Origin: Prevotella sp.
Lineage (GTDB): Bacteria > Bacteroidota > Bacteroidia > Bacteroidales > Bacteroidaceae
Assembly (NCBI GenBank): GCA_017619375.1
Contig: JAFZSL010000070.1
Location: forward strand, 1 to 64,000
Reading direction: 5' to 3'
DNA: 64,000 nucleotides
The notes beneath the pieces were generated by a model. The model saw only the letters and a list, made by a program, of their open reading frames with translations, did no database searches and had not been told where the DNA came from. This document shows positions 7,553 through 9,268 of the stretch, one piece after another (within the stretch, counting starts at the first letter, position 1; every line of letters starts with the position of its first letter). The position numbers were made by a program, and so were the translations under genes.

Positions 7553-7561
7553 GATATGTTT

Positions 7562-9214
7562 TTATATTGATAAAATGTCATTATTTCCACCAGTGTCCCC
7601 CGCTGATGAAATGTCATGATTCCCATCAGTGTCCCCCGCTCCATAAGCAGAGTAACTTACTCCCCCTCTAAGATTAGAGGGGGCAGGGGGCGTTGATCTA
7701 GAAGTAACCCTTTTTTGAAACTCCAATATGCTGTTAATGATGGCTTGTGGTTGTTGAAAGACTATTATATTCTCAAACCGAAGGGTGTATATGCCAAAGT
7801 TATAAAGCAATTCTTCATCACGTTCCATATCATATTCCGGGGTGGCTCCATAATAGTGATAGTTACCATCCAATTCGATTGCGAGTTTCAGGGCAGGACA
7901 ATAGAAATCCAGGATGTGGTTGCCCACGCTATATTGTCGGCGGAATTGCAATCCGTTGATTCGTTTTGCTTTCAACAATTTCCACAAACCTCCTTCCGCA
8001 GGAGTTCCATTAGAGCGGAGTTGGCGACGAAAGCTTTTCATTTCTTGTCTGTTCATCGGATGATAGGTAGGGGTAGTCAACGCCCCCTGGCCCCCTCTAA
8101 TCTTAGAGGGGGAGTGAGTTACATCACTTGCTTCGACGTGAGTGGTTGGAGAAGTTGACCTATTTGATAACCATTTATCGGAAACATAGGTATAATACTG
8201 CATGGTAAGACAGTGGATGGAGCCATGCTGGCGGATGATTGTACGGGCGTCCAAAGGCACCACATCACGGCCAGGAAACGCACCGCCGATGGTCTTGCAA
8301 GCCTGGGCGTCATTGTCGGGTTGACCGTATGTTGGAACAATGACGGCTCCGTTGAGAACAAGATAATTGGCATACGTGGCAGGCAGGCGTTCCCCGTTTT
8401 CCATAATCGCTCGTGGCATGGGGAGGGGTAGCAGCCGATAGGGGTTCCCTTCGATGGTGCGCAAGGTGGACAGTTGATGCTCAAGGGCTTGGAAGTCGGC
8501 ATGCTGCGCATCGGAAGGGTCGTCGCTGCACACATAGAGCAAGGTGTCGCCAGGAGCGCAACGCACGATGGTGTCGATGTGTCCATCAGTATCGTCGCCT
8601 ATCAGGTTGCCATGGTCGAGCCACACCACGCGGGCTGCATGCAGACGACGTTTTAACTCGCGTTCCAGACCTTCTCGGTCAAGGTCGTTGCGATGAGGCG
8701 CCATCAGGCACATGCTCGTTGTGAAAATCGTGCCCGCCCCATCGCTCTCCACGGAGCCGCCTTCGAGAACAAAGTCGTTGTGGTCATCAAGGGGGCCAAG
8801 GATACCGCCTTCAGAGAGATGGCGGTTGATGGCATTGTCGAGCGTAGCGGGGAACTTGTCTCCCCAACCGTTGAAACGGAAATCGAGCAACCTTGGACTG
8901 GCGGTGCTGCCTGCAGCCGGCAAAAGGGTGAGGGCGCCATGGTCCCGAGCCCACGTGTCGTTGGTGTCACATTGGAAGAAAGTGACACGACGGAGAGATT
9001 CCGGCGACAGTCGCGATGCCAATGTTGAACGCGTGGAGGCCGGGTCGGGAGTGACAACCAACAGGGACTCATAGCGCGTGATGACGGACGACAGTTCGAC
9101 GAACGTTTCCGTAATGTCTGTCAGGTAGTCTGACCAGTCGGTGCCGGCATGGGGCCAAGTCAGTTGGATGCACCGCTGGCGCTCCCATTCCGCAGGGAAA
9201 TACAGGTTGTCCAT
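7562..9214 (-). CDS. aguA: Agmatine deiminase with C-terminal DUF559 domain
   Basis: A 550-residue protein when started at the ATG complementary to 9212-9214, where the family alignment begins (MDNLYFPAEWERQ). Residues 1-342 are a complete agmatine deiminase (porphyromonas-type PAD fold) with NDTWARDHG near 85-93, DTDGHID near 208-214 and catalytic Cys335 in GSIHCLTMQ; it converts agmatine to N-carbamoylputrescine. After a linker, a second in-frame Met (residue 387) starts a DUF559 domain with NGTPAEGGLWKLLKAKR, LQFRRQYSVGNHILDFYC and LAIELDGNYH, a Vsr/PD-(D/E)XK-like nuclease fold. The protein ends in two 12-residue repeats (AGDTDGNHDISS). The DUF559 part lies within an inverted-repeat cassette, so the fusion looks acquired. 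Whether one polypeptide or a separately started DUF559 protein is made is unknown. Confidence 0.9.
   Translation of the reverse strand: MDNLYFPAEWERQRCIQLTWPHAGTDWSDYLTDITETFVELSSVITRYESLLVVTPDPASTRSTLASRLSPESLRRVTFFQCDTNDTWARDHGALTLLPAAGSTASPRLLDFRFNGWGDKFPATLDNAINRHLSEGGILGPLDDHNDFVLEGGSVESDGAGTIFTTSMCLMAPHRNDLDREGLERELKRRLHAARVVWLDHGNLIGDDTDGHIDTIVRCAPGDTLLYVCSDDPSDAQHADFQALEHQLSTLRTIEGNPYRLLPLPMPRAIMENGERLPATYANYLVLNGAVIVPTYGQPDNDAQACKTIGGAFPGRDVVPLDARTIIRQHGSIHCLTMQYYTYVSDKWLSNRSTSPTTHVEASDVTHSPSKIRGGQGALTTPTYHPMNRQEMKSFRRQLRSNGTPAEGGLWKLLKAKRINGLQFRRQYSVGNHILDFYCPALKLAIELDGNYHYYGATPEYDMERDEELLYNFGIYTLRFENIIVFQQPQAIINSILEFQKRVTSRSTPPAPSNLRGGVSYSAYGAGDTDGNHDISSAGDTGGNNDILSI
7573..7640 (-). 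repeat. 36-bp tandem duplication at the aguA 3' end
   Basis: Two 32-base copies (7573-7604 and 7609-7640) differ at a few positions and recur with a 36-base period, so the reading frame is kept. They encode the paired tail AGDTDGNHDISS / AGDTGGNNDILS. The duplication lies just outside the left inverted repeat of the DUF559 cassette. Confidence 0.85.
7652..8122 (-). mobile_element. DUF559 cassette bounded by inverted repeats
   Basis: A 471-bp segment whose ends, 7652-7695 (44 bp) and 8078-8122 (45 bp), are near-exact inverted copies of each other, differing by one substitution and one extra base. Each end contains its own 22-base palindrome (7662-7683 and 8091-8112) with 10-bp arms CCCCCTCTAA/TTAGAGGGGG. 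The interior encodes only a DUF559 domain, starting at the ATG complementary to 8054-8056. No target-site duplication was found. The arrangement resembles a small non-autonomous or nuclease-driven element; mobility is inferred, not shown. Similar palindromes beside DUF559 genes would be the test. Confidence 0.7.
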
Positions 9215-9236
9215 GGAGATGCTTGCTATTGAGTTA

Positions 9237-9268
9237 CAAAAATAGGAAAAACATTTCATTCAGCCAAC
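9237..9268 (-). promoter_or_regulatory. Promoter of aguA-aguB
   Basis: On the minus strand TATTTTTG (9237-9244) is preceded by GTTG (9265-9268) with a 20-base spacer, close to the TTTG / TAnnTTTG consensus. It sits 22 bases before the chosen aguA ATG and supports that start over the in-frame ATG complementary to 9257-9259, which would lie upstream of the predicted transcript. Confidence 0.6.

Follow-up and report, generated by a model that had tools for sequence, protein, structure and literature searches.

A DUF559 gene between inverted hairpin repeats, fused in frame to aguA of Prevotella, is probably one copy of a widespread REPtron-like mobile element

What is a small nuclease-like domain doing between two inverted hairpin repeats, in frame behind a complete metabolic gene? 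This question is raised by a window of 64,000 nucleotides from Prevotella sp. (GenBank assembly GCA_017619375.1, contig JAFZSL010000070.1, positions 1 to 64,000), in which the agmatine deiminase AguA and a DUF559 domain share one open reading frame (ORF) of 565 aa on the minus strand (7562..9259). We give a probability of about 0.72 to the reading that the cassette with DUF559 belongs to a widespread family of mobile elements similar to the REPtrons, the enzyme of which would be a Vsr-like nuclease and not an HUH transposase. What the data show directly are the bracketing of DUF559 genes by inverted repeats, the matched ends of the cassettes, the clade-specific orientation of these ends, the precise presence or absence of cassettes at two sites, purifying selection on DUF559, the correlation with repeat numbers, and the copies that lie in frame inside genes.

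At the aguA locus, the features named in the preliminary description, i. e. inverted ends with a hairpin in each of them, a DUF559 domain, and a frame open to AguA, were all confirmed. Pfam detects PAD_porph/AguA at aa 21-355 (E 5e-108) and DUF559 (PF04480) at aa 407-514 (E 9e-25) of the ORF, and besides the host gene DUF559 is its sole Pfam domain. The nuclease-like DUF559 domain (7718..8041, minus strand) carries conserved catalytic-type residues. The ungapped arms around it (7652-7690 and 8084-8122) are 92% complementary over 39 nt; with one gap, they match over 46 columns at 95.65% (blastn E 1.3e-16 in a comparison of 700-bp flanks), and each arm contains a palindrome of 22 nt. Solitary copies of the repeat share extra outer bases, and therefore the footprint of the cassette is likely to be about 7645-8135 rather than 7652-8122. 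With the outer limits taken from solitary copies at C13 and C26, respectively, one end repeat (7645..7696) extends from the outer AAGCAGAGTAACTTACT via its palindrome (7662-7683) to an inner G-tract, ..CAGGGGGCGTTGA, and the other, inverted one (8077..8135) from an inner C-tract via its palindrome (8091-8112) to the outer AGTGAGTTACATCACTTGCTTCG. The agmatine deiminase part (8192..9259, minus strand; likely start at about 9214) is complete, as had been proposed, because the aguA gene of the genome G049, the product of which is 89% identical, stops with TGA right after ...MQYY, the native end of the protein, and 17 bp before the ATG of the next gene. AguA and DUF559 are thus fused because the host stop codon was lost, and translation of the joint frame is predicted from its being open. 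The fusion is not conserved: AguA was matched in 111 of 120 Prevotella genomes that served as a sample of the genus, and in the other genomes none of the listed DUF559 matches is located at a listed AguA match. The preliminary description had regarded conservation of the fusion across distant genera as an argument against a mobile element; none was seen among these matches.

Is the arrangement peculiar to this locus? PF04480 matched in 70 of the 120 genomes, the genus of which we take to be Prevotella as locus L021 of G023 matches a named Prevotella assembly at 100%. We took 111 of the 124 near-full-length matches listed, the other 13 being mostly low-ranked, near a contig end or broken by stops, and 110 of these loci were flanked by 400 bp or more in both directions. 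At a threshold of E<1e-3, an inverted pair flanked DUF559 in 93 of the 110 loci; the controls gave 1 of 105 with shifted flanks and 56 of 395 with flanks from different genomes, and direct repeats were present in the same DUF559 flanks in 27 of 110 loci. Measured from outer end to outer end, the elements have a median length of 550 bp (range 443-1059, 95 loci). Despite differing sequences, their ends have a common design, CC(C/T)(A/C)CCCCC followed by a few bases, a hairpin such as CCCCTCCC..GGGAGGGG, and then mostly AGT. A GTAG tag beside the hairpin was not found in the aligned ends, which show the C-tract and mostly AGT, a few of them (e. g. L026) with an adjoining CTAC, and Rfam reported no family at its gathering score in four loci scanned. 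The bracketing of DUF559 is a real and general association that has apparently not been described so far: No link of DUF559 or COG2852 to palindromic repeats was found in open-access papers, and an earlier description is possible.

Enzyme and ends seem to belong together. In the 24 genomes with at least two cassettes, the own partner end was the best match for 68 of 68 cassettes, a result that is partly built in as the arms had been defined by matching. The tree of the DUF559 proteins of the genus has two sides (SH-aLRT 99). In clade 1, which holds the window copy, the tract faces inward in 13 of 13 classifiable cassettes, with 5 loci lacking a pair, and in clade 2 it faces outward in 79 and inward in 1, with 2 ambiguous and 11 without a pair; these counts refer to a rule based on the bases beside the hairpin that was adopted after the tree had been seen and that replaced base skew, for which some loci gave ties. 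Moreover, repeat numbers correlate with DUF559: With R1, a covariance model of the clade-2 ends built from DUF559 loci, at least 10 repeats were found in 40 of 62 genomes with DUF559 (E<1e-18) and in 5 of 58 without (Fisher p=1e-10, which does not stand for independent events since the genomes share ancestry). The copy numbers are lower bounds, with 54 candidates scored per genome.

These counts also bear on the idea that the hairpins are ordinary repetitive extragenic palindromic sequences (REPs) moved by a RAYT transposase (Y1_Tnp), with DUF559 as a passenger. Y1_Tnp was matched in 72 of the 120 genomes, and when RAYT-type genes of the same genus were used as a yardstick, 19 of 24 loci were themselves bracketed (6 of 30 fetched loci were too short and were dropped). 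However, the number of repeats shows no relation to Y1_Tnp, with at least 10 repeats in 29 of 72 genomes that have it and in 16 of 48 that do not (p=0.56), and RAYT is therefore disfavoured as the mover. The repeats printed around Y1_Tnp differ in look from the DUF559 end repeats, and no Y1_Tnp match was obtained in the window genome or in the repeat-rich genomes G003 and G026. We consider it very improbable that RAYT moves the hairpins of the DUF559 cassettes. The loci L196-L225 are classical-looking Y1_Tnp REPtrons of Prevotella with repeat families of their own.

The repeats are also present without the gene. In the window genome, the palindrome of the cassette occurs with zero mismatches at 5 places, 2 at the cassette and 3 alone, and a control read backward had no match in this genome. 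In 400 kb of G062, on contigs that were picked because they had hits, 15 of 17 ends are away from DUF559, and 6 of 6 pairs within 500 bp have the tract outward, 1 of the 6 being a DUF559 cassette. The same length of G116 contained 10 repeat hits, and 400 kb of G024, a genome with no DUF559 match, contained none. Inverted end pairs without DUF559 (doublets), which are shorter than the cassettes, occur in genomes with cassettes and look like REPINs; as 20 doublet loci were picked for close opposite hits, their orientation is no evidence. The supposition that the ends always flank DUF559 genes has therefore to be given up for the window genome and G062. Ends occurring mostly without DUF559 had been named beforehand as an argument against the element, and what they look like instead is a population of non-autonomous partners. 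The profile search revealed two DUF559 matches in the window genome: The second, a gene of 128 aa (L001), is bracketed by inverted hairpin repeats of 55 nt (98%) that are unlike those of the window in sequence. REPIN-like doublets of the window's own repeat family were not seen in its genome.

Did such cassettes move? Two clean empty sites suggest so (slashes mark the boundaries). (i) A cassette of G049 is absent from its close relative G000 (flanks 93-94%): The filled site reads cggcctc/ACCCCC...GGGGGTGAGGCC/tttatcc and the empty one cggcctc/CATG/tttatcc. (ii) A cassette of G026 is absent from G003, likewise a close relative (flanks 98%), with gccatatt/AAAAGTGTAGCGGCCCC...GGGGCCG/ttattt for the filled and gccatttt/CC/ttattt for the empty site. 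The boundaries at both sites are the repeat ends, except for one side of the G026 site that is about ten bases outside. Bases of the empty sites, 4 bp in G000 and 2 bp in G003, are missing from the filled ones, and no target duplication is present at either site. Together with the bracketing of 93 of 110 loci, these sites bear out the earlier suggestion of a mobile element made up of symmetric hairpin ends around a small Vsr-like nuclease; of the two insertion marks to be looked for, the empty site was found and the target duplication was not. L047 (in G070) and L107 (in G110 and G095) were rejected as empty sites since the orthologous places hold other hairpins or doublets, and the solitary copy L007 was unusable because another repeat occupies the place in the relative.

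The empty sites are relevant as well for a second alternative, in which REPIN-like doublets moved by something else were there first and DUF559, as a homing endonuclease gene, inserts into their middle. A clade-2 cassette does resemble a doublet with DUF559 in its spacer and in the same orientation, and the structural relative 3R3P is a mobile-intron protein. On the other hand, the two clean empty sites lack the whole cassette including its ends, with no empty doublet left, the ends are oriented differently in the two DUF559 clades, and the repeats are not linked to Y1_Tnp, the only other enzyme tested. We therefore regard the homing gene as an unlikely explanation, if one that deserves some weight.

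The preliminary description had also proposed that the element inserts after complete genes. This is the case at aguA, but the insertions are not confined to 3' ends and are found in frame inside genes as well. In Bacteroidota, DUF559 was matched in 222 of 395 genomes and 110 of 170 genera, and 37 of the best 150 matches are located in frames of more than 800 aa. By Pfam or NCBIfam, the hosts are LeuRS (L275, L331, L334; in Prevotella L064, L074), MetH (L292, L329), RecG (L337, L338), HsdR (L283), UvrD-type helicases (L325, L327), methylmalonyl-CoA mutase (L326), and restriction enzymes of type ISP (L271, L332) and of Eco57I type (L320, L321); blastp against the named hosts added LeuRS (L278, L299, L330, L333), MetH (L282, L284, L290, L323, L324) and HsdR (L280, L288, L322, L336). 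Additional hosts in Prevotella are AAA helicases, ABC-F, DegT and an epimerase. As judged by the junctions, the insertions in LeuRS are at two places, and those in MetH share a single linker in seven genomes. Copies at the same site are often, though not always, neighbours in the DUF559 tree, and thus they may be due to inheritance as well as to repeated insertion. An inverted pair at E<0.01 was found in 10 of 20 long-frame loci (control 0 of 20), and one at E<1e-3 in 10 of 23 usable top loci of the phylum (6 of 29 were too short). For the doublets, we examined 21 for an open frame that continues for 60 aa or more to either side; 11 of the 12 from six genomes lie in such a frame, and none of the 9 from G070. 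For ten of these frames, Pfam identified as hosts, among others, a bacterial DNA topoisomerase, an Era-type GTPase, a class I tRNA synthetase, a class-II glutamine amidotransferase, an AAA helicase and a nonribosomal peptide synthetase; NCBIfam places Era above and IleRS, the gene of which was partly fetched, below the cut-off. In the less selected sample from G062, 1 of 5 doublets and 2 of 5 single ends are in frames.

What kind of enzyme is DUF559, which Pfam still lists as being of unknown function? Of 111 DUF559 proteins, 108, among them the window copy, have retained the full set of five catalytic-type residues (E, D, E, D, H). The ratio of nonsynonymous to synonymous substitution rates (dN/dS) is 0.05-0.26 in the 7 of 14 pairs for which it was computable, dS being saturated in the other 7, and these values show that DUF559 is under purifying selection. 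The profile matches 3HRL (1e-32) and the mobile-intron protein 3R3P (4e-7), which we take to be the homing endonuclease I-Bth0305I, and we read the conserved residues of DUF559 as the EDxHD motif. The DUF559 frames are mostly little longer than the domain, and Pfam found no intein domain in 21 fused frames scanned. A DUF559 gene has been assigned to the EDxHD family (PMC9403480), and homing endonuclease families have been described (PMC3943268). Outside Bacteroidota, 11 loci were obtained from 23 matching records of a plasmid collection that includes some whole chromosomes; 5 of these 11, a set without a control, were bracketed at E<1e-3 (two from Pseudanabaena, and one each from Picosynechococcus, Deinococcus and Sinorhizobium). 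A phage collection contained no match to the window DUF559 at E 1e-8.

Alternatively, DUF559 could be a host gene for repair, similar to Vsr in very short patch (VSP) repair, or for defence, and the palindromes could be terminators or recombination scars. For the DUF559 protein VsrA of Caulobacter, a Vsr-like role as a putative repair enzyme has been proposed (PMC12907096), and DUF559 copies on cyanobacterial plasmids (L188-L190) adjoin genes for DUF1156, DUF499 or BREX-type methylases. A host gene is a misfit, however, with the in-frame cassettes in leuS, metH and recG, the precise empty sites and the matched ends, and for the cassettes we judge this explanation to be improbable; it may hold for unbracketed DUF559 genes, e. 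g. those of E. coli.

How might the element, if mobile, work? We infer nuclease activity, recognition of the ends, and movement by DUF559. The Vsr/EDxHD-type nuclease would be carried between two inverted hairpin repeats of its own, repeats that would also exist without the gene, either singly or, as in REPINs, as inverted doublets. It is tempting to speculate that DUF559 recognises its own end repeat, i. e. the hairpin and the adjacent C/G tract, and cuts a target, and that host repair then copies or moves an element or a doublet into the break without target duplication. An insertion would be kept if it is directly behind a stop codon or, being in frame, at a tolerant position within a gene, and in the latter case its ends would be translated as short peptides rich in proline and glycine. 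At aguA, the insertion would have removed the stop codon and fused the frames.

Among known systems, the REPtrons and REPINs with their RAYTs (PMC3116915) are most similar: One gene is enclosed by inverted hairpin repeats, the repeats also occur alone or as inverted doublets lacking this gene, and many copies are beside genes. Unlike them, the DUF559 element has a Vsr-like nuclease in place of an HUH tyrosine transposase, ends composed of a C/G tract and a hairpin, mostly followed by AGT, in place of a GTAG tag, and a good share of its observed copies in frame inside genes. This last property is shared with the Rickettsia palindromic elements (RPEs) and other intragenic REPs, which according to PMC3733652 and PMC10969869 are short palindromes in frame in protein genes, including those for replication and repair; in contrast to RPEs, the larger form of the DUF559 element carries a nuclease gene, and the copy in the window comes after a complete gene. 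Small variable segments in genes are the subject of PMC2884548, and PMC3733652 treats GTAG and CGTC REPs, REPs in genes and RPEs, the CGTC REPs being without a dedicated transposase. A CGTC core was found in 8 fetched loci only. The EDxHD homing endonucleases such as I-Bth0305I have a nuclease domain that is homologous by profile; the DUF559 element differs by hairpin ends of its own and a short protein, and neither an intron or intein nor an additional DNA-binding domain was seen. Inverted ends and non-autonomous copies are also typical of insertion sequences and miniature inverted-repeat transposable elements, but there is no target duplication at the two clean sites and no known transposase in the cassette. 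As a tentative proposal, with a little less than an even chance in our estimate, the DUF559 elements form a separate class of bacterial mobile DNA, in which a Vsr-like hydrolytic nuclease spreads its own hairpin-ended cassettes and REPIN-like doublets across phyla, both entering essential proteins in frame as translated inserts, and RPEs and other intragenic palindromes may have an enzyme of this kind as their missing partner. If this is true, the widespread DUF559 has a role as the nuclease-driven, non-HUH counterpart of the REPtrons, an enzyme is supplied for palindromes that do not follow Y1/RAYT transposases, an explanation is at hand for the inserts that LeuRS, MetH and other conserved enzymes carry in frame, and the movement of intragenic palindromes becomes a directly testable question.

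Several observations weigh against a mobile element of this kind or against its extension to the window. First, 17 of the 110 genus loci have no inverted pair at E<1e-3, and outside Bacteroidota no bracketing at this threshold was found for two loci of E. coli, two of Synechocystis (best E 0.017 and 0.059), Azospirillum (0.059) and Photobacterium; thus, not all DUF559 genes are of the cassette kind. Second, many cassettes occupy orthologous positions in diverged genomes, so that residence is often long and movement often old. Third, the first, cruder rule of base skew gave 75 outward, 7 inward and 11 loci without a pair in clade 2 (clade 1: 13 inward), and the window DUF559 is a long branch in clade 1, and its placement in the tree is unsure. 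Fourth, some genomes without DUF559 carry repeats, e. g. G100 with at least 45, and the correlation of repeat counts does not cover the window genome, in which the repeat families differ and R1 had no hit. Finally, the empty site at aguA is not clean at the repeat ends: The stretch without alignment to G049, from the end of AguA to the next gene (7554..8191), comprises about 640 bp as compared to 19 bp in G049 and includes DNA outside the hairpin ends.

Apart from these points, some minor features deserve mention. DUF559 is present at one orthologous place in many Prevotella (L060, L061, L065, L067, L068, L073, L076, L082, L090, L095, L028), and in the members scanned, L076 and L067, its frame runs into guanylate kinase; this site is perhaps an old, domesticated insertion. 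At L047 (1260-1378, G110), a repeat of about 119 bp shows self-matches on both strands and has dozens of matches in G070, and at L107 (3060-3340, G070) there is another many-copy repeat family, with matches on both strands in G110. At L150 (2996-3217), about 220 bp of short tandem repeats in G049 replace a solitary hairpin of the window genome. In the window, an imperfect palindrome read from the sequence (8158..8191) abuts the native AguA end outside the cassette; it is absent from G049 and the sole copy within the window. The window also has two tandem units of 36 bp (89%) outside the cassette (7568..7639), which lie in the spacer at the end of the fused ORF and the core of which is present only here within the window.
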